Shown piece after piece: positions 5,839-43,923 of a DNA stretch of 64,000 bases. The notes beneath the pieces are model-generated. The model was given only the letters and a program-made list of their open reading frames with translations. It was not told the origin of the DNA and did no database searches. The stretch comes from Serendipita indica DSM 11827. Lineage: Eukaryota; Basidiomycota; Agaricomycetes; Sebacinales; Serendipitaceae. Position 1 is the stretch's first letter, and the number at the start of each line of letters is the position of its first letter. Location: assembly GCA_910890315.1 (NCBI GenBank), contig CAJVGD010000007.1, positions 1-64,000 on the forward strand, read 5' to 3'. The position numbers and the translations under genes were made by a program.

Positions 5839-8800
5839 CTACGCGTCGACCGAGGGCTGGGATGAAAGGGCCTCCTCGATCTGCCGCAGCTTTTCAGAGA
5901 TAAATTCTTGTCCCTCCTTGTCCTGTAGCTCACTCCAACGTCGCATTTGGTCCTCGCGAATGGTCTTTGACTCGTCATATCGGCCTTGGTCGAACAGCAC
6001 CTTGGCCAAGTTACCCAACTCTCGCGCATATTCTGGCCCGCTGTCTCCTTCAAATTCTTTGATACGGTCTAAATGGGCCCGAAAGACTTCCTCTGCCTCG
6101 GTGAGCATTCTCTGTCTCTCCAGTGCCTTCCCAACCTTCCAATATGCCTCTAATATCTCACGCTGTGTCCCACCTTCTAGATCACGGTATAACTGCATAA
6201 CCTCGGAAATATGAGGCGTAGCAGCATCAAAGAGGTCCCTCATTTGAAGAGACTCGATTATAAAGCAGAAACTCCAGCATACTGCGGGGTGATTTGGTCC
6301 CAGAGTCCTCTTCCTCTGAAGGTAGATCTCACGCCAGAGCTCCTCTGATTCCTCGAACCGCTTTTGCTCGAATACACACTTAGCAACACCAATGAGCGAG
6401 TAGGACTCGCCGGCATTCCCTTCTTCCAGGGCTTCTTTGAAGTACTTGAGGTTTTCACGGAAAAGTTGCTCTGCCTCAGGATAGCATTCCTGCTTGAAGT
6501 AGCAGGAGGCCAGCAATATACGTATATCGGCAGCAAGAGCATGAAGCTCTCCAAATTCCTCGATGACCTTTGCAAGTGTTGTCGAGAGTAAGGTTTGGGC
6601 TTCGTTGTATTTCTCCTGGAAAGTAAGGGAGGAGCCGAGCATTACCAGTATTTGGAGTAGTTGATAATGAACTGCTCCACGCAGCTCGTCACTGGCCTTG
6701 GCATATTTACGTAGCAGTGACTCGAGTTCTATGTTCTTATGCAGCTTCCAGAGAAACGCGGAGAATGTCAAGACTGTGGTGAGATTACGAATAGAGAATT
6801 CCCCATAGAGTCGACTTCCAGCTTTTATTGCCTCCTGATAAGCGCCTTCAGCTTCTGGGTACTTTCCTTGCAACTCGTATATATGAGCTTGGAAAGAGAG
6901 GAGGGCAATATCATGATTTCCATCGGGGTTACCAATTTCATGACGAATTTGCAGGAGCTGATTGAGCTGTCCCTTCTTTTTCTCCCCCATAGTGGCATAG
7001 CAGTCAAGCAAAGAGTTGGTTGTATTGAGTGTCCAGGGGTGGAGCGGCCCATATAACCTCGTTTGTGTTTCCATGAGCCTTTCCAAAATGACACTGGCTT
7101 CATCATACTTTGGGTCCTTGGATGATTTCATTAGGTTGTACGCCAGGATGAACATGGTCTTCTGAGTTTTGGCATGGCTCGGTCCAAGTACCTCCTCTTG
7201 AATGCTATATGCCAAATGTAGTAAATTGAGCATCTCTTCATGATTCTTCATTGTCAACCGAAGACACTCTGCCAGCCAAAACATAGCCTCAGCAGTCGAG
7301 GCTGTCCTGGGCCCACTGACGGACTTTCGCAGCTCCAGCACTTGACGAGAGAGACTTTCCATTCTTGTATAATCGGGAATAGTCATCTGTGCAATGGCAA
7401 CCTTGAGAAGTGCCTCGCTAGTCCGTATATCCAAGTCTCCATAGGCAGCACGAACCGTTTCATGGATCCTTTCCCAAGTCGTGAGAGAGGTAGCAGCTGC
7501 CAGAGATGGATCGGATAGCTCGACAAGTGCTGCCCTGTCATTGATGTGCAGTGTATCTATCTCGGAAATGAAGCGGCGTGCATGTGGGAAAAGCTCTTGC
7601 TCAATGTCTATACCATCGCCTTCGTCCACAACGCAAGTCAACAGTCGCAGAGCCGCGACCATGTTCCGTCGTCTCTCCTCTGCACTCTGACGATCATAGG
7701 CCCACGCATGTAGAAGAGGATGGAAGCGAAGTCGGATATCCGAGTAGAGGGATACAAGCGTGATTAGTGAGAGTTGTAGAAGCTCCTCAAGGACTCGGTC
7801 CAGCTCGATCTCCTCAAACTTCCCAGTTGGGACTATGAGCCGGCGAAGGAGGTCGATGGACTCTTGGAAATCCGGGCTACGATCCATGAGCTTGTACTCC
7901 TCATGTGAGAAACCCTTTGAGGCAGCGAGGCCGATCATTGATCGAGGAAAGCCGGTATAATGGAAAAAGCAGAGAATCGAGAGGAGGCCAAGGGCGCGCT
8001 CCGACAACGAGGACAGCGAAGTGTCAAATGCTGCGTAAACACTGTGTTTGTACCTCAGCTTGTCCCGCTGGACCGTCGTCTGTTTCAAAAGCTCGGAACG
8101 ACTCGTCTCGAGTCGCTTGAGGTACGTCTCCAAGCATTTGTGTTTGCGTATATAACATCCCGCCTGGATGACTGCGATTGGAAGGTATTCAAATTCCTTC
8201 ACAATCGCCATCGCTTGCTCCCTTTGGCGCGAAGTACGCTTCTCAGCCGGGCCAAGCGCGGAGTTCAAAAGTGCATCGCATGCCTCGCTTTTGCTCATCA
8301 ACTCGAGCGCTATGTGCCCTTCTGGCGAAATAAATTCGAGTTGGGCGTTGCGGCTCGTGATAATGATGGCGCCATGATCGCAAGTAGGGAGGACGGAGGT
8401 GATATCCAGATCTGGGTCATCCGCGTTGTCAAGTATGAGGCACCACTTGGTTGTGGTGACCTCGTTTGGCTCAGCCAGAGCCTGGAGAGCACTGCTGAGG
8501 TCGGTTCCTTGGAATGACCGGTCGATGGACTTGAGCCGGGCCACGAGGTCCGTCTCAATGCTCCTATCCGACGAAGCATCGATGAATAGAATGTGCTGGA
8601 AACTAAAAGAGGATGTCACTAGTGTAGTCTTCGTTGCGGTTTGCTCACCATTCGGCGTGGAGCCTTGCCCAGGCGACGACAAGTTGTGTCTTACCCGAAC
8701 CACCCATTCCTGTTATAATTGAGACTCTTTGTCTCATCTCTTCCTCAGAACCAAGAAGAGCCACATCCATATGATTCATCGGCACCTCTCTTTGGACAAA

Positions 8801-14471: not shown

Positions 14472-17400
14472 CTATGCATTGACAGAGAGGTGGGATTGAA
14501 GGGCCACCTCGATTTGCTGCAGCTTCTGAGCAATGAATTCTTGTTCTTCCTTGTTTTGTAGCTCTTTCCAAAGCCGCAGTTGGTCCTCCCTAATGATTTT
14601 TGATTCCTCATATCGGCCTCGATCGAACAAAAATTTGGCCAAGTTACCCAACTCTAGCGCATACTCTCGCCCGGCGCCTCTGTGCAGCTCTTTGGCAAGT
14701 TTTATATGAGTACGAAAGGCCTCCTCCGCCTCATCTAACATCTCCTGCCGTGCCAGTACCTCTGCGACTCTCCGATGCGCCGTTACTATCTCTCCCTTGT
14801 CTCCACCATCCATAGTGCGGTGGATTTCCATCACCTCAGCGATGGGAGGCACAGCAAGATGATAGAGCCCCCTCATTTGCAGACACTGAACTACCCAACA
14901 AAGATCTGTGCATACCGCAGGGTGATTTGGTCCCAGAGTTGCCTTTCGCCGGAGATAGACATCATGCCAGAGCTCCTCAGACTCCTCATACCGCTTTTGT
15001 TCATACACACATCGTGCAACACAGAGGAGGGAGGAAATTTGGCTAGCATCCTCTCTGCCCAAGGCTTCCTTTGAGTTGCTGACGTTCTCACGAAAGAGGG
15101 ACTCTGCGTGGGAATAGTCTCCTTGATGATAGTAGCAATATGCTAGTCTTTCGCGCGTGTCGGTGGTGAAGGAATGAAGCCTTCCGAACCGTTCAATGAC
15201 TTTTTCGAGAGCCGCTGAGAGAATGGCTCGTGCTTCGTCGTATCTCCGTTGAGAAATAAGGCATGAGCCAAGCATCCTCATTATAAACACCAACTCATAC
15301 TGCCCTGACCCTTTCAGGCCCTCTCCAATCTTGGCATACTGCCTCAGCAGTGATTCGAGTTCCGCTTTCTTGTCTAATTTCCGGAGGAGGTAGGCGAGCT
15401 TCAAGACTGTAGCGAGATTACGAGCTGAGAGGTGGCCGTATAGTTGACTTCCTGCTTCAAGGAGCTCCCAGTAGGCACGTTCTGCTTGTTGGTACTTCCC
15501 TTGCAGCTCGTATACATGAGCTTGAAAAGCAAGGATTGAGGTGTCCCCCACTCGCGTATTGGTGTCGATTTTGGAGCAAGTTTCTAGCAGATTATTCAGT
15601 TGTTCCTTCTTCTCGTCCATATCGGCGTAGCAGTCAAGTAAAGCTTTGGTCGTCTCGAGGGTCCATGCATGGAGAGATCCATACAATTTCGTCCGTATAT
15701 CCATAATTTTTTCCAATATGATGCATGCTTCATCGTATCCTCGTCGTCCTTTGATCAGATTCTCTGCTAAACACAGCATAGACCGCTGGGTATCAATATG
15801 AGTAGATCCCAAAACTTCCCGCCGAATTTCGTAGGCCGTTCGGAATAGATCCACAATTTCCTCGAGTCGTGTGTCTTGTAGGTCGAGGCTTTGTGCTACG
15901 GAGCACATAGCGCGGGCAGTAAAAGCGGTTCTAGGTTCTCCTAGAGATAGCCGCGTGTCTAAAACTGTGCGAGATAGTTGCTCCATCCTTTTGTAATTAT
16001 AAACGCCAATTTGCGCCTCCGCAAGATGGAGAAGCGCCCCGCTACTCCGAAGATCCAAATCGCCATACGCAGCACGAACAGTTTGATAGACGCCCTCCCA
16101 GATGGCAACGTACCTCTCTGAGGTATCACCTGGTTCGAGCAGTTCGGCTAGAGCTCCTCTGTCGTTCACATGGAGCGAGTTTATCTCGGCTATGAAGTGA
16201 CGGGCATGTGAGAAAAGCTGTCTCTCGATGTCTACGCCATCATTATCATCCACCACACAGGTAAGCAGCCGTAGAGCCGCGGCTTTATTCCGTCGCCTTT
16301 CCTCGTCACTCTGACGATCGTACGCCCACGCGTGTAGAAGGGGATGAAAGCGTAGGTGGTTATCCGAGTAAATTGATACGATTGTGATTAACGATGATTG
16401 TTGCAGCTCCTCGATGATTAAGTCCAGCTCAAGCTCCTCAAATTTCTCGTTTGGGACCATGAGTTGTCTAAGGAGGTTGATGGATTCTTCAAAGTCAGGT
16501 CCTCTATCCATAAGCTTGTATTCCTCGTGCAAAAAGTCTTTGGAGCCGGCGAGACTGATCACCGATCGAGGAAAGCCGGTGTAGTGAAAGAAGCATAGTA
16601 TTGAAAGGAGGCCCAGAGCCCGCTCCGACAAAGAGGAGAGTGTCGTGTCAAATGCCGCGTAAACACTGTGCTTGTACCGCAGCTTGTCCCGCTGAGCCGT
16701 CGTTAGTTTCAACAGCATAGGACGACTGGTCGTGAGTCGGTTGAGATATGTGTCGAGGCATTGATGTTTGCGAATATAGCATCCCGCCTGGATAACGGCA
16801 ATCGGCAGGTATTCGAATTCTTCCACAATCGCCATTGCCAGTTCTCGCTGGTACAGAGTTGGCCGCCCAGTCGGGGCAAGCGCAGACGTCAGAAGCGCGT
16901 GGCACGCTTCGTCCTTTGTCATGGACGCCAACTTGAAGTGGTCCTTCGGAGAGATGGATTCGAGCTGAGCATTGCGGCTCGTGATGATAATCGTACCATG
17001 GTCGCAAGCAGGGAGCAAGGAGCCAATGTCGAGATCTGGATCATCCGCGTTGTCGAGAATGAGGCACCAATAGGCTGTGAGAACCTCATTTGGCTCGGCA
17101 AGAGCCTGGACAGCGCTGTTCAGGTCGGATCCCTGGAAGGAGCGGTCGGCGCACTTGAGCCGGGTTACAAGGTCCGTCTCAACGCTCTTTTCTGACGATG
17201 CATCAATAAATAAGATGTGCTGAAAACTAATAATGAATGTCAGCTGTAAGCACAATGCCGGATCCTTCTCACCGTTCGGCATGGAGTCTTGCCCATGCGA
17301 TCACGATCTGAGTCTTGCCAGAGCCCCCCATCCCAGTGATAATTGACACCCTTTGTCGCATTTCTTCCTCAGAACCAAGAAGAGCCACATCCATATGATT

Positions 17401-36480: not shown

Positions 36481-36555
36481 ATTTTGGTAGTCGGATTGTT
36501 GGTAGAATAGAATATGCGAGGGTTAATGGTGGCGCGGCGCAAAACCCAAAAAGTT

Positions 36556-36646
36556 TGATGAGGGTGGGATTCGAACCCACGCCCTGTTACAGACAAGAAA
36601 ATTCAGATCCTGAATCTTGCGCCTTGGACCGCTCGGCCACCTCACC
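36556..36646 (-). tRNA. tRNA-Leu (anticodon CAG) with a short intron
   Basis: The 91-nt minus-strand sequence folds as a type II tRNA. The acceptor GGTGAGG pairs with CCTCATC (one G-U), the discriminator is A, and the T arm is GTGGG-TTCGAAT-CCCAC. The anticodon stem CAAGA/TCTTG encloses loop TTCAGG+T with anticodon CAG at 36612-36610. The variable arm is CTG-TAA-CAG. The two stem halves pair only if 9 nt (36608-36600) directly after position 37 are removed, the canonical place of nuclear tRNA introns. It decodes CUG. Confidence 0.93.
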
Positions 36647-37173
36647 AATAACTCGGAGCGATTGTAGACAAAGGTATATGATCGTTTGGCTAATCTCTTG
36701 CAGCGATCCAATGTGAACTCTCTAAAAATGTATCAGTCCAATATACCGTAATCATTATGCAATCAGGAAACGCGATGAACTGCTCTACCCGCCAATCCCG
36801 CAACGAGAGACTTGCCCTGTCGGAACCTTTCAAAAGTCTTGGCATGTTTCTCGAAGCAGCTACTGCGCATACGTCAAAGTGTGCTTCTCGTGGAATCTTA
36901 TCCATGCGAGAACCCGGCGACCCTGGACAAAGAGGGCGTCGGCAGCCAATCACTCGTTGAGTATTTCATCCCTCCGCAGTCCATCTATTCATATTCATCC
37001 GGATTTACGTTACAAATGTTACCGGACCCGCCGAGCAGGACTAGCGATGGTTCTCCGATGGCCAATGGTGGATCAACCGAACCCATCGTACTCTCCAGCT
37101 TTTACCGCGTTGAAGAACAGAACGGCCTCATTGCGGAACATTACGGTCCTCCATCTGCCCGAGCCCAGCGTGG
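36647..37173. other. Intergenic region between tRNA-Leu and dioxygenase 1
   Basis: Short overlapping open frames only; no gene supported. It contains the upstream region of dioxygenase 1. Confidence 0.45.
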
Positions 37174-37222: not shown

Positions 37223-38782
37223 ATGCTCTGGAAGAATATTTTTGCCCTCGCGTCGCTTAGCACCCTCGTCTATGGTCCGCCTTTGCGCTCTCCCTTGCTG
37301 CGCATTCAGCTCATTCCTGTGCATAGCTCATGCTGCCCCTGATAGCAGTCCTTTTGCCAACCATCCAGAAGAGATTGCTCGTAGACAGGTAAGCCGAATT
37401 CCGCAGCGCTCTCTATCCTTCGCTCATTGCTCTCGAAGCTCGAGACGAATGCCCGTCACGTCATGGCCCGCAATTGCGCCCCTCAGGTTGCCGAGTACCA
37501 GGCTCAGCGCAAAGCCCGCCGTGAGCTCAAGCGTCGTGGAATCGTCGACGACAGCATCATGGATCTCGAGCGTCGCCAGGCTAGTGGCACCTCGTCCGCT
37601 CTGAAGCCTCATTACTCGACAATTCAGAATGTGAGTAGGACATTTGGTCGTTTTTAACTACTGAAGATATTCTAGTTTGTAAGTGGCTTACATCTCATGG
37701 GATAGACCTCACGCTACCTTAGACGTGCATTGCCGCTCCAGAGGTCACTGAGGGTAGAGTATGCCCAACAAACACAAAGCTCGGTTGACACAGTCTAGGG
37801 CCCTATTATCTCCGTAATGAGCTCATCCGCACAGACTTGCGCGAGGCACAGGCGGGAACCCCCCTCTATCTCGACATTGGCGTCCTCGACATTTCCACTT
37901 GCAAGCCTGCGACCAATGTTTTTGTCGAAATCTGGGCTTGCAATGCCCAAGGTGTCTATTCTGCTTTCGGTGGAAGCACAACTGGCGGAGGTCCTGGAGG
38001 TGGTGGGCAAGCAGGTGGAAGCGGAACGAAGACGAATAACAACAATTTCCTGCGTGGTGGATACACAACGAATGCAAACGGTGTCGTGGAGCTCTTGGTG
38101 CGTGGGAATGTTCCTCTGAGTCTTTACTGACCTGCTGCTCCCTAGACCATTTACCCTGGATTTTGTAAGAACACGTTTTGTGCCCTTTACACGCCTGAAT
38201 ATCCTTAGACTCGGGACGTACGATTCATATCCATACAATGGTTCATCAAAACGTCAAGACTAGCTCAAATGGGTACGCGCCTTTACTCTGCCACCCAGTA
38301 TTCTGACATATAGTAGTACCATCGTTTCGTCTCCTACGACTCTTCGCCACATCGTACGTCTTGTATTTCGGGAGTCTCCCTCACTGACCATTCTTGTCAG
38401 GGTCAGATATTCTTCGACGAGACATTGAACACACGGGTTCTTGCGCAGTCGGCTTACCAGAACAGTGGACAGTCCCACACCCTCAATAGTGCTGACAGCA
38501 TTCTAAGGCAAGCAAACGCAAACGGCTACAGCGCATTTGCATCCGTCACTCAGCTGGGTAGCAGTCTTTCCGATGGTCTCCTGTAGGTGAACTGTATATT
38601 GACCTCTGTAATCTGACACTTTTTAGGGGATATATCAGTACATTCTCTTCTCCTGACCCTGTTTATGCCATTGATCATTGTTCCCAGCCATTGGAATCGA
38701 CCCTACGGCGGCGCGGTCTATCACGACAAAGAACTATTACGGAGTCGCCAAGCGGGAGACGGAAGAAGAGGAAGAAGACTAG
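37223..38782 (+). CDS. Secreted intradiol ring-cleavage dioxygenase 1
   Basis: A predicted extracellular non-haem iron(III) dioxygenase that opens catechol-type rings between the two hydroxyls. The signal peptide MLWKNIFALASLSTLVYAHA is split by intron 37275-37326. A conserved N-terminal region follows (SPFANHPEEIARRQ, then HVMARNCAPQVAEYQ). After a short linker comes HYSTIQN, a 3-nt exon ttt (37676-37678) and TCIAAPEVTE. Intron 37754-37798 leads to GPYYLRNELIRTDLREAQ, which carries a Tyr iron ligand, then LYLDIGVLDISTC. The His ligands lie in GRTIHIHTMVHQN. Later introns are 38098-38145 and 38165-38208, plus others up to the last exon. The product ends with an unusual acidic tail KRETEEEEED. 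The frame is intact through about ten exons. Neighbours at 39329 and 42121 are paralogues. The substrate (lignin or plant phenolics) is inferred. Confidence 0.88.
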
Positions 38783-39271
38783 GCCATACGATAGTCCTCG
38801 CGGTCGCTAGCGGCAAACAATTTACCCATTGTGCTTTACATACCGTCTCCCATATGCGTTGAATCCCCTCGTCTTGTGGCTGCGGATGTGCTCATTTGTC
38901 AAACTCCATGGCCGTTGAGACTTCTAGCAATACAGCCCGGCAATTCACCTGAACACCTCGCGCGACTGAATATAAGACGGACAGATGTCTCGAGTCTAAT
39001 TTTGTATTCTGTCGCCAAGCCGTGAAGATCACTAGACTGGACCAATCTGCGGCCACCGAATATACAACCGGTAAGCGTGACTGCGGATCACTGGCTGGTT
39101 ACCGCAGCGCACTCATCGGTTGCAGGTGACAATGTGAAACCTAGTGAAATTTGAATCAGTTGGTCGGATTTTCTCGCATCCATAAATCTGAGAATTTCAC
39201 CCTTTGGCTTCTCAACTGCGGAACTCCTAGACATGAGAGACGAATACTTCCGTGTTTTGCGACTCTGAGGG
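38783..39271. other. Intergenic region between dioxygenases 1 and 2
   Basis: No gene supported; it contains the 3' end of the first gene and the upstream region of the second. Confidence 0.45.
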
Positions 39272-39278
39272 TATAAAG
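39272..39278 (+). promoter_or_regulatory. TATA box of dioxygenase 2
   Basis: tataaag, 57 bp upstream of the start codon at 39329. Confidence 0.6.
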
Positions 39279-39328
39279 ATACGAAGGAGCACTAAGTTGA
39301 CAGGCATCCAAGTTTCCTTTCGTTGATC

Positions 39329-41316
39329 ATGATTTCGCTCAAGTTTGTCCTCGTCGCGTTGATGACCGCGGCTTCCGCTTTAGGTGAGGATTTCGCCCCG
39401 AGCTAATTATGAAAATTGACAAGTCTAGGTCATGCTGAGCCTTCCACTCCCTTTGCTAACCACCACAAGGAAGTCGCTCGCCGCCAGGTGCGTACAACTA
39501 GATCTGATTTACAACGTTACCTGACCAATCTCTTAGCTCGAAATGAATAAAAGACATGTCCTCGCTCGCAACTGTGCACCCCAAGTCGCCGAATACCAGC
39601 GTCGACGTAAAGCTAGGCGCGCCCTTCGCAAACGTGGGCTGCCTACTGGACCAATCCAGCTCAAGGGTAACCAACCCCAAGGCCAAGGACAAAACCAAGG
39701 CCATCAGAATGGTGGACAGAATGGTGGACAGAACCATGGCCAGCAAGGACAGGGTCCTCATGGGCATTCTGGCTTACCGGGTACCCCGACGGGCGGCGTG
39801 TCTTCTCCTGCGAGCACATCTGTTGCCACTACGTCTGTTGATACTACGGACGTCTCCACTAGTGATGCTACGACCACTGACGAGACCACCGACGTTGCTA
39901 CGAGCATCTCGAGTTCGGACGAGGCAACGTCGACGATAGTTGATACAGAGACAACTGATTCGACTTTCACGGATGCAACAAGCAGTAAGTTCCGTGTATG
40001 ACGTCGACGTTGCTCATTAGCGGACAGTCTATTCTACTACGACCAGTACGGCTGCTGCTGCTCATTACTCGGCGATTAAAAACGTAAGCCGCGATTATAT
40101 CTAATCAAATTAATCTAACATGTCTACAGTTTGTGAGTCGTGGACAAACACGGTTCCCATTTCTAAACTACCATAGACGTGTGTGATGGCTCCCGAGGTC
40201 GTGGAAGGCCCATACTATCTCCGTGACGATTATGTGCGCCAGGATATTCGCGAAGATCAGGCAGGCACACCACTTTATCTGGATATTGGCGTCCTCGATA
40301 TCACGACTTGCACTCCCGTGACCGATGCCTTTGTCGAAATCTGGTCTGCCAATGCTCAAGGCGAGTACTCGGGCTTCGGAAACGCTGGAACAACTGGAGG
40401 TGGAGGTAACGGGACAACACCTTCTGGGTCGGGTGGGCCTCCTGGAGGCAGCGCACCGACTCAGTCAGGTAACGACACCGCCATTCCAACCGGGACCTTT
40501 AGTGGACCCGCTCCAAGTGGTAGCGGCAGTCCCTCGGGCGGAGGAGGAGGCGGAATGTCGTCTGGCAAGGCAAACGGTGACAATTTCTTGCGAGGTGGTT
40601 ATACCGTCGACGAGAATGGCATCGTCGAAATTATTGCAAGTGATTCTCTCAGAGTCTTGATCACCACTAACATTTTGTAGACCATTTATCCCGGCTTCTG
40701 TGAGTCCATAGAGCATTCGAGAGCATTTGCTGACTAGTCAAGACTCTGGCCGTACTGTCCATATTCACACAATGGTCCACCAAAATCTTAGCTACCATTC
40801 GAACGGGTATGTGAAAAGGTATCCACACGAGCTCGGGCTAAGATTGCCCGCAGGACGATCATTTCCTCTTCGGGCAGCCTTCGTCACATTGTACGTAGCG
40901 ACTCCTCCATGTGGAAAAAGCTCACTTCTTCAGGGACAATTCTTCTTTGACGAGGCTTTCAACACCGAGGTCCTCGCCCAAGAAGCGTACTTGAATAGCG
41001 GTCAATCCCACACCTACAACGACGAGGATGGATACTCCAGACTGCAAACACGGATGGATATAGTGCCTTTGTCGAGATTGAGCGACTCGGAGATACATTG
41101 GACGAAGGGCTTCTGTGCGTTCATGCCTTCCCTTTATCGAGCCATACTGACGACTTGATGTTACAGAGGGTATATCAGTATGTGAAAAGGCGTGACTTCC
41201 ATATTGGTACTGACGTCTCTGCAGCGGTCGGTATAGATACCAGTGCGAGCTATACGATTAGCACCAGTAACTACTGGGATCCAGATTTCGAGCCTGTGTC
41301 GGCTTCTTCGACGTAG
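39329..41316 (+). pseudogene. Secreted intradiol dioxygenase 2, with one frameshift (pseudogene or sequence error)
   Basis: A paralogue of dioxygenase 1. Signal peptide MISLKFVLVALMTAASALGHA, then STPFANHHKEVARRQ and HVLARNCAPQVAEYQ. The linker is much longer than in paralogue 1: a Gln/Asn/Gly-rich run (QGQNQGHQNGGQNGGQN) and then about 60 Ser/Thr/Asp residues. HYSAIKN is followed by the 3-nt exon ttt (40130-40132) and TCVMAPEVVEGPYYLRDDYV, then a Gly/Pro/Ser-rich insertion, GGYTVDENGIVEII, intron 40636-40680 with a GC donor (gcaagt), and GRTVHIHTMVHQN with the His ligands. Near 41027 the frame slips: QSHTYNDED leaves the homologous frame, which resumes as ILQTANTDGYSAFVEIERLG. This is the only disruption I find, so either a recent loss or a sequencing error. 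Downstream splice sites and the C-terminus (YISTSNYW-like) are kept. Confidence 0.75.
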
Positions 41317-42062
41317 ACAATCCTCACAGCGTATACCTATGAATACATCGCTCGTTTCTACCTTGCCTTTGCGTGCTCGACTTGACTCCACCCACGATCT
41401 TTGTTCTTGACAAAATTTGGAAAGATGCACAAATCTCTAAGCCAATGCGTTCTCACAACTGAAACTGAGCATTATAATTCCCGGCAACTTTCAATTAACC
41501 TCCGGATCATCAGACGTCCAGGAAGTATCGAATCCCAGAGGTCATCAATGGCAGTAAAACGTAGTAAGAACCATTCTTTTCACGTTCATCCGCGTTTCTA
41601 TCGCTTCTACGACCGCTTGCTGTACCGTTGTGGCCAAACCGCCGACTTCTGTTGATGAATGTCAACCCACTTGACGCCCTATCCTCGACTTCTTTATGAA
41701 TTCGCGATTATAACAGACTCTGTTGGGTGCCGGAAATCTCTCGGTTACTCAGGATCAGGGACGATTTCGCCGTGTGGATTCGGCATTGCGACCAGACGAC
41801 TCTCCATCATCGAAGCGCATATTGTGCTTTCCAAATACTCTCCTTCTCCGCCTCAAGGTTTTGGCGAAATGATTAAGGAATGGCGACATCCAACCGTTGT
41901 TCGAGAATTTCGTGACGACCATCTCATTGGAATCAGAGGATTGAGATGAGAATGAGAATGTACTGTCGAAGTAGCGCAGTATAGGCGCCGGAAGGCAAGG
42001 ATTAGCACTTCGTCAATCCCCGCGCCATGACCAAGACTCTGGCGCAGTTCTCACTCGGCGGA
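41317..42062. other. Intergenic region between dioxygenases 2 and 3
   Basis: Several short frames, none with recognisable family features. A weak TATA-like tatttaag lies at 42063, 58 bp before the start of dioxygenase 3. Confidence 0.45.
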
Positions 42063-42120
42063 TATTTAAGGAGTTGTAAACTACTGCTCGCTCGATTCGA
42101 GCTGTACGGTTGTGCCCAAT

Positions 42121-43923
42121 ATGCTGTTCACCGCTGCTCTCTTCTCCGCAAGTCTCGCCTCGTACGCGTATGGTGAGTAATCCGACTGTTCAGTTTAGAT
42201 ATTTCTTGATAGTCTACAGCGCATGCTGAACCATCGACGCCTTTTGCCAATCACCCCGCCGAGGTGGCTCGTCGACAGGTATGTTCCTGGAACAGATTCT
42301 GTCCCGCTAACCAGGAGTAGCTCGAAGCCAACAAGAGGCATATCATGGCGCGCAATTGTGCTCATCAGGTAGCCGAGTATCAACGCGTTCGCAAGGCCAG
42401 ACAGGAACTTCGCCGTCGCGGACTCCACGAGCGCGCAGAAGCCTTGTGGGAACGACATCCTCCCCCTCATCATTTACCTCCTCCTCATCATTTACCTCCC
42501 CCTCCCCCTCCACCAGGCCATCATCCTCATCCGACTAGCTCGGCTTCGTCTTCGGTCTTTAGTACACACCCTCACCCGGGTACCTCGACAGTGTCCGCGC
42601 ATGCGCCGCATTATTCCACGATTCAAAATGTATGTTTTGTATCTCTAAGACCTCTCGTCGACTCGCTAACCCCTTTACAGCTAGTAAGGACTCACTCTAG
42701 TTGTTGTGTTGCCTGACGCCTGGCCATAGACCTGCGTGACTGCGCCAGAAATCATTGAAGGTGAGCAACTAATATATTCGATGCATCTTAATCTAAACCG
42801 TACTAGGGTATGATTTTCTTCAACGTTGCATAAACCAAAGGCTGACCAACTCAGACCGTACTACATCCGTGATGAGTTTATCCGCCAAGACCTTCGAGAG
42901 TCTCAACCCGGTACGACTCTCTACCTCGATATTGGCGTAATGGATATTTCGACCTGCAAGCCCGCTTCCAATGTCTTTGTTGAGCTCTGGTCTGCCAACG
43001 CCCAGGGAGAGTACTCTGGCTTTGGCGCTGGTCCTGCATTGAACTCTACGACAACACTCTCCGCCACGAGCGCCCAGGCTTCAACTGCAACTATCACGAG
43101 TACTCCGACAGGCTCAGTCCCTCTTTCTGTGCCTAGTGGAATCGACTTTGGTACCATTGTGATCCCGTCACCTCCGAAGAACAATAATCTCAACTGGCTA
43201 CGTGGGGGCTTGCCCACAAATGCGCACGGCATGGTCGAGCTAGTGGTCTGTTCATCTACTACCGTTGTGATATCTGTTTGACCCGCCCTAGACAATCTAC
43301 CCAGGGTTCTGTATGGCTATACTGGCTCTTTTTGTGACTCTACTTACCACCTGAGCAGATAGTGGGAGGACAGTGCACGTCCACACGATGGTCCACCAGA
43401 ACATTAGCTATCACAGTAACGGGCACGTCTTATATGCACCCAATGCCGACGCTGACGAGTAATAGCACCATCATCTCCGCGTCTGGTGGACTTCGACACA
43501 CGGTAAGATGCTCCGTTTGATAGACCGGGGAGACTGACTCCGGAACAGGGCCAAATCTTCTTTGATGAATCCGTCAATAACGAGGTCTTGGCGCAGACTG
43601 CGTACCAAGGGAATCCACAGCAGCATACGTATAACAATGAAGATCTCTGGGTCATCCTGGCAAACGCGAATGGGTATAGCGCCTTTGCCGATATTGAAAA
43701 GCTGGGTGATAGTCTCGATGACGGTCTCTTGTAAGTCTAGTAGTCGTATGCTAATCCTGATGTCTAACTCTGGTCTACAGGGGCTATCTCAGTGAGTTTG
43801 CTGTTTCCCATGCTGCTTTTGAGCTAATGGGGCGTAGCTATCGGAATTGACCCGACTGCGTCCTACAACATTTCGTCGACCAACTACTATGACCCGAACT
43901 TTAGTTCTGCACTTGCAGATTGA
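42121..43923 (+). CDS. Secreted intradiol ring-cleavage dioxygenase 3
   Basis: Third paralogue. Signal peptide MLFTAALFSASLASYAYAHA (split by an intron), STPFANHPAEVARRQ, then HIMARNCAHQVAEYQ. The linker is His/Pro-rich (HHLPPPHHLPPPPPPPGHH). HYSTIQN is followed by a 3-nt exon cta (42681-42683) between introns 42630-42680 and 42684-42729. The codon for Gly of GPYYIRDEFIRQD is assembled from three pieces: g at 42760, a single-base exon g at 42807 and a at 42855, with introns 42761-42806 and 42808-42854. The catalytic part continues LYLDIGVMDISTC and GRTVHVHTMVHQN. The intron at 43423-43465 starts with GC. The C-terminus is ASYNISSTNYYDPNF. With these splices the frame is open to TGA 43921-43923. 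Extracellular aromatic ring opening is inferred from the family. Confidence 0.85.

Follow-up and report, generated by a model that had tools for sequence, protein, structure and literature searches.

Candidate three-nucleotide exons and a probable one-nucleotide exon in tandem intradiol dioxygenase genes of Serendipita indica

The DNA analysed here (the window) is a stretch of 64,000 nucleotides (nt) from the basidiomycete Serendipita indica DSM 11827 (assembly GCA_910890315.1, contig CAJVGD010000007.1, positions 1 to 64,000, forward strand). It belongs to contig 7 (73,751 bases); the whole genome comprises 24.7 Mb on 55 contigs. The window contains three tandem plus-strand genes (g1, g2 and g3) of the intradiol ring-cleavage dioxygenase family (PF00775), in each of which a single codon appears to form an exon of its own between two short introns. 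A fourth paralogue (g4, locus L005) is located on the minus strand of contig 22. All matches of a genome-wide family search (4 matches) and of a protein search (18 matches) fell within g1-g4; these searches score the best candidates only and may have passed over a more distant copy.

The assignment to the family is based on profile scores and on conserved residues. The g1 protein matched PF00775 with 29.3 bits, above the curated cut-off of 27.3. When single exons were compared with the profile, one g2 exon reached 29.7 bits, and the values for g1 (22.4), g3 (26.3) and g4 (23.1) were below the cut-off. The iron ligands of intradiol ring-cleavage dioxygenases are two Tyr and two His. Proteins g1-g3 carry the Tyr of the motif NAQG-x-YS, and the Tyr and the His-x-His of PGFYSGRT-[IV]-H-x-H; in g1 the ligand-type Tyr and His residues align with the same residues in 5vg2, which together with 6bdj, also a spider-mite enzyme, is the nearest solved relative of the three proteins. 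All three have, as judged by eye, a signal-peptide-like start. The models of g1-g3 comprise 34 introns of 41-52 nt (mean 46), and the four introns of g4 are 50-57 nt long. Two of the modelled introns have GC donors, 40636-40680 in g2 (GCAAGT) and 43423-43465 in g3 (GCACGT).

In each tandem copy the sequence His-Tyr-Ser-x-Ile-x-Asn is followed by an intron, one codon, a second intron and Thr-Cys (Table 1). A sequence-only reading of the window had described a single codon between two complete introns at these positions, with six flanking introns of 44-51 nt, of a size normal for the locus and with good donors and acceptors. All of this was borne out, the size by the range of the 34 modelled introns. 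That reading had overlooked a probable 1-nt exon at 42807, as well as exons of 11 and 19 nt in g1-g3. Gene g2 is open across the 3-nt exon region, and its frame break lies further downstream.

Table 1. Positions of the dioxygenase genes, their small exons and the neighbouring introns in the window (scores in bits)
Feature	Position	Strand	Remarks
Copy 1 (g1)	37223..38782	+	intradiol dioxygenase-like; 12 exons, 349 amino acids, open from start to stop; spliced model
Copy 2 (g2)	39329..41316	+	same PF00775 family; 12 exons; frame broken once in exon 40934-41114
Copy 3 (g3)	42121..43923	+	same PF00775 family; 13 exons, 414 amino acids, open from start to stop; spliced model
g1 intron 5' of 3-nt exon	37631..37675	+	GTGAGT...TTCTAG, 45 nt, score 19.3
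g1 predicted 3-nt exon TTT (Phe)	37676..37678	+	splice parse and shuffles
g1 intron 3' of 3-nt exon	37679..37722	+	GTAAGT...CCTTAG, 44 nt, score 24.0
g2 intron 5' of 3-nt exon	40084..40129	+	GTAAGC...CTACAG, 46 nt, score 18.7
g2 predicted 3-nt exon TTT (Phe)	40130..40132	+	splice parse and shuffles
g2 intron 3' of 3-nt exon	40133..40176	+	GTGAGT...CCATAG, 44 nt, score 20.0
g3 intron 5' of 3-nt exon	42630..42680	+	GTATGT...TTACAG, 51 nt, score 24.1
g3 predicted 3-nt exon CTA (Leu)	42681..42683	+	splice parse and shuffles
g3 intron 3' of 3-nt exon	42684..42729	+	GTAAGG...CCATAG, 46 nt, score 22.3
g3 intron 5' of 1-nt exon	42761..42806	+	GTGAGC...ACTAG, 46 nt, score 16.2, near low end of training range (15.2-26.6)
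g3 probable 1-nt exon G	42807..42807	+	middle base of Gly codon in EGPYY; frame and parse score
g3 intron 3' of 1-nt exon	42808..42854	+	GTATGA...CTCAG, 47 nt, score 20.1
g1 single intron at same Gly codon (G/GG)	37754..37798	+	45 nt; g2 and g4 intronless there
g1 19-nt exon (TIYPGF)	38146..38164	+	spliced model
g2 19-nt exon (TIYPGF)	40681..40699	+	spliced model
g3 19-nt exon (TIYPGF)	43292..43310	+	spliced model
g1 11-nt exon (GYI)	38627..38637	+	spliced model and scan
g2 11-nt exon (GYI)	41167..41177	+	downstream of frame break; model and scan
g3 11-nt exon (GYL)	43781..43791	+	spliced model and scan

The sites were scored with a splice model (donor, acceptor, branch site and length) trained on 30 introns of g1-g4, the eight introns beside 1-nt and 3-nt exons being excluded, and all one- or two-intron readings that joined two fixed codons in frame and without a stop were enumerated. 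The parse with the 3-nt exon ranked first in all three copies, among 4 (g1), 6 (g2) and 6 (g3) open in-frame parses. The second-best parses in g2 (31.4 bits) and g3 (42.1 bits) retained the 3-nt exon and shifted the upstream donor only. If instead a single longer intron of 92, 93 or 100 nt were removed at the outer sites, the inner sites being unused or due to chance, the protein would read Asn-Thr-Cys, and this would be in frame in all three copies; Asn-Thr-Cys would itself be a weak Asn-X-Cys sequon. The single outer intron scored 12.7, 6.9 and 14.4 bits in g1, g2 and g3, as against 43.4, 38.8 and 46.4 bits for the 3-nt exon parse. Summed scores somewhat favour two-intron parses, which have more terms; after subtraction of a prior cost of about 17 bits for the second intron and the tiny exon (a rough estimate of our own) the margin was still about 14 bits or more per copy. 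The longer intron would, moreover, fall outside the length range of the modelled introns and would create a gap relative to paralogue 4, and we regard it as very unlikely.

All eight introns flanking the four 1-nt and 3-nt exons are of the GT..AG type, with scores (16.2-24.1) inside the training range. In the six introns at the 3-nt sites the top-scoring branch-like hexamer (2.3-7.4 bits) places its A at a distance of 11-14 nt from the 3' end; a best hexamer is always picked, and only its score and place are informative. The interior of each span was also shuffled with dinucleotides kept, 5000 times per site. Some AG-NNN-GT/GC arrangement was present in 449 (g1), 225 (g2) and 761 (g3) of the 5000 shuffled spans, but the observed score was not reached at 3 nt by any of 5000 shuffles in any copy, and at exon lengths of 1-12 nt it was reached by 0, 1 and 0 of 5000. 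Inner sites as strong as those observed were thus absent from the shuffles, and their chance retention beside a single long intron is not expected in three saturated copies.

The degree of saturation was apparent from several measures. The flanking introns were no more similar between tandem copies than shuffled letters (6 of 6 comparisons), and comparable fourfold sites differed between the copies at 20 of 36, 23 of 31 and 24 of 33 positions. Synonymous divergence (dS) came to 2.8 in one pair of copies and was saturated beyond computation in the other two, and nonsynonymous divergence (dN) was 0.14-0.16 (89 aligned codons). Against this saturated neutral background, conservation of the AG-NNN-GT arrangement is meaningful; it points to constraint acting on splicing and on the protein, and not to regulation. 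The earlier suggestion that this conservation argues for function holds in so far as it concerns retention of the codon in the protein; it gains no support with respect to regulated splicing. Origin of the intron pair by tandem duplication of one intron was rejected, as in all three genes the two introns resembled each other no more than shuffled letters would.

Paralogue 4 is intronless at the site. It has AAT ACC ACT TGC in one 193-nt exon and reads Ile-Arg-Asn-Thr-Thr-Cys-Val-Thr, with exactly one codon between Asn and Thr-Cys. When the 3-nt exons are included the four proteins align at the site without a gap, and when they are left out three of the four are one residue short. Since the intronless g4 has one codon there, the bases of the 3-nt exons are needed for the protein register. 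In all four copies this codon specifies the X residue of an Asn-X-Thr sequon (NFT, NFT, NLT and NTT): the sequon noticed earlier in copies 1 and 2 is present there, but it is not restricted to them. Taken together, the parse scores, the shuffles and the intronless paralogue support a real 3-nt exon, as proposed in the sequence-only reading, as the best interpretation of the DNA in three of three copies.

The spider-mite proteins 5vg2 and 6bdj align with an extra residue beside the 3-nt site. Bacterial contigs scanned with g1 yielded no relatives among 66 pattern matches. Scanned with an alignment of the family, they yielded 77 loci, in 64 of which the motif was found by script, 13 being outside the pattern. 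By eye, the 64 rows have Cys-x3-Pro-Glu...Glu-Gly-Pro without gaps, in a sample that is biased, the scan having selected for E[VI][TVI]EGPYY. There were no relatives among 9 matches in viral contigs.

Downstream of the 3-nt exon of g3 the Glu-Gly-Pro-Tyr-Tyr motif (EGPYY), the Gly of which is also present in distant solved relatives, is interrupted in the following way: GAAG/gtgagc...actag/G/gtatga...ctcag/ACCG. The parse with a 1-nt exon scored 36.3 bits and was the sole one of three open parses that kept EGPYY; the next parse scored 4.9 bits and inserts a Glu. None of 5000 shuffles matched the g3 parse at 1 nt, and one of 5000 did so at 1-12 nt. With the 1-nt exon included, the complete g3 coding sequence of 1245 nt is open. 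The G at 42807 is therefore probably a 1-nt exon, as the reading frame of EGPYY appears to demand.

Pairs of short introns that nearly adjoin can also arise from nested splicing, in which the inner intron is removed first and thereby rebuilds the donor of the outer intron; at the 3-nt sites the three bases would then be lost. Such stwintrons have been described in several fungi (PMC5639578, accessible text). The nearest rival to the 3-nt exon in any copy was of this kind: the codon-skipping parse of g3 scored 39.9 bits, just 6.5 bits lower than 46.4, which must be counted against the one-codon exon. In the other copies the best nested parses scored 28.5 versus 43.4 bits (g1) and 26.7 versus 38.8 bits (g2), the places differ between copies, and the best g2 parse also removes Ala-Ile-Lys-Asn. 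At the 1-nt site the sole in-frame nested parse scored 18.5 versus 36.3 bits and adds a residue to EGPYY. As nested parses were below the two-intron parse at all four sites, assignment to the stwintron class was rejected, and we consider nested splicing extremely improbable. The accessible description of stwintrons has in common with g1-g3 the two short, nearly adjoining introns in fungal genes; in a stwintron one of the outer intron's splice signals is broken up by the inner intron, whereas the introns of g1-g3 are complete and leave 1 or 3 exonic bases between them (PMC5639578).

The frequency of such exons was estimated by a scan for tiny exons on both strands of the window and of two further contigs, C1 and C2 (first 100 kb of each). 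Intron pairs 0-12 nt apart numbered 32 versus 2 in the shuffled control (one shuffle per strand) at a threshold of 18, and 69 versus 32 at 16. In these counts overlapping alternatives are counted separately, contig starts may be atypical of the genome, and the pairs in the window include the exons under study and the 11-nt exons whose introns trained the model. At threshold 16 the window had five 3-nt pairs (the three sites, an alternative donor in g3 and one inside the g2 11-nt exon), and two lay outside it; 1-nt pairs numbered two in the window (42807 and an alternative inside the g2 11-nt exon) and two outside, at one place. Both outside candidates look false by eye. In C2 31026-31114 the first "intron" continues as a coding frame that we take to be kinase-like, and in C1 91570-91671 (minus strand) the first "intron" contains a further acceptor. 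Credible 3-nt or 1-nt exons in the window plus 200 kb were, partly as judged by eye, only those of the dioxygenase genes. Small exons as a class may be common here; the 19-nt and 11-nt exons of g1-g3 could not be skipped without breaking the frame, because neither length is divisible by three.

Some other features were recorded. At C1 91570-91671 (minus strand) there is a possible small exon, of unsettled size, between two short introns, in a gene reminiscent of an amino-acid permease. Immediately upstream of the dioxygenase cluster lies a tRNA-Leu (CAG) on the minus strand (36555-36647). Large minus-strand reading frames at 591-1649, 5839-8703 and 14472-17282 are rich in tetratricopeptide repeats and perhaps belong to a repeated receptor-like family.

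The best explanation, which we hold to be highly probable, is that g1-g3 contain constitutive one-codon exons whose flanking introns are excised one at a time. Splice sites would pair across each short intron, and each intron is equipped with a donor, a branch site and an acceptor; since each has what it needs, neither would depend on the other. Two spliceosomes could hardly occupy both sides of 1-3 bases simultaneously, and the two introns would be removed in turn, in which case the size of the exon would hardly matter. The 3-nt codon would supply the middle residue of the Asn-X-Thr sequon, which immediately precedes the conserved Cys at the start of the dioxygenase domain. Stepwise intron removal would likewise account for the 1-nt exon of g3, where the two introns would split the Gly codon as G, G and A. 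The presence of the tiny exons in mRNA, the order of intron removal and the use of the sequon are what we infer from these observations.

Several further points weigh against this explanation. The training set of the splice model was just 30 introns, all from our own models of g1-g4. Skipping of 3 nt preserves the frame, and the frame alone is no proof of an exon. Retention of the first intron of g3 is also open (22.3 bits). In a test with 75-nt flanks g1 and g2 had no open frame whether or not the codon was included, a result that speaks neither for nor against the exon because these flanks reach into neighbouring introns. Most bacterial alignments start at the Cys after the codon or one residue earlier, and the stretch before the Cys is too variable for a comparison of the codon. 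As for the 1-nt exon, the scan picked up the intron pair around 42807 at a threshold of 16 but no longer at 18. One-base frame breaks, which may represent decay or assembly errors, occur elsewhere in copies 2 and 4: by eye, exon 40934-41114 of g2 is one base short relative to copy 3, and the third exon of g4 (L005 2451-2630, minus strand) is broken downstream of the codons compared. An error of this type beside the g3 acceptor at 42854 could make a 1-nt exon seem necessary when it is not; the two complete introns of normal length at this site speak against an assembly error.

If the 3-nt exon were a regulated cassette, skipping would turn Asn-X-Thr into Asn-Thr-Cys and could tune glycosylation. 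The frame is kept either way and both products are open, and an alternatively spliced 3-bp exon is known from Drosophila homothorax (PMC7392893, accessible text). We saw no sign of alternative splicing, and paralogue 4 has the residue in an uninterrupted exon, so that this possibility is considered unlikely. Equally little credence is given to the more elaborate proposal that, in a g3 pre-mRNA with 1-, 3-, 11- and 19-nt exons, inclusion of the 3 nt serves as an Asn-X-Thr switch at the entrance to the dioxygenase domain, selected in all intron-bearing copies.

Exons of this kind are already known; the comparisons below refer to the accessible parts of the cited papers. In plants, exons of 1-15 nt have been documented (PMC8831610), including a 1-nt exon in Arabidopsis (PMC4674806). 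The plant genes APC11 and VPS55 likewise have a one-base exon between ordinary introns, and intronless copies exist (PMC4674806, PMC8831610); they differ in being plant genes whose 1-nt exons were confirmed by RNA sequencing and reverse transcription PCR, whereas the dioxygenase exons are predicted from DNA. The cytochrome P450 gene CYP621A of Fusarium contains a 1-nt exon, which its authors present as the first for a fungal gene (PMC12940212). Both there and at g3 42807 the arrangement is A-G-[G]-G-T, with the lone G at the second position of the Gly codon of a conserved motif, and in both systems the tiny exon was argued from register with an intronless relative. CYP621A belongs to another gene family and another fungus, and its exon is backed by 18 transcript reads (PMC12940212), whereas that of g3 is predicted from genomic sequence. 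The homothorax exon also consists of one codon, but it is alternatively spliced from a longer exon and encodes part of a homeodomain protein, not of a secreted enzyme (PMC7392893). The P450 genes of Phanerochaete chrysosporium are likewise a fungal family with small introns; their shortest exon is 6 bp, with none of 3 or 1 nt in the text available (PMC1184071). A microexon switch has been reported in Trichoderma (PMC11121469). The "3-bp exon 2" of Ganoderma gpd (PMC8379801) was set aside, as the accessible text describes a construct fragment and the natural size is unclear, and so were the microexon mentions in the available text of PMC3990503 and PMC4014442, which are aligner settings. No established 3-nt internal fungal exon was found in the literature searched (mostly open papers and partial texts), which is not proof of absence. 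The dioxygenase set would thus be a further case of a known kind, unusually dense within one gene family.

Standard annotation pipelines would probably misread the g1-g3 proteins. The Gly codon of EGPYY, with no intron, one intron or two introns a base apart in different copies, offers a natural series for the origin of tiny exons. If transcripts confirm the predicted exons, copy 3 would combine 1-nt and 3-nt constitutive exons in one gene and would provide another fungal 1-nt exon, following that of Fusarium CYP621A as described in the accessible text (PMC12940212). The finding, if true, would support the view that in short-intron fungi, with pairing of splice sites across introns, there is no lower limit to exon size.

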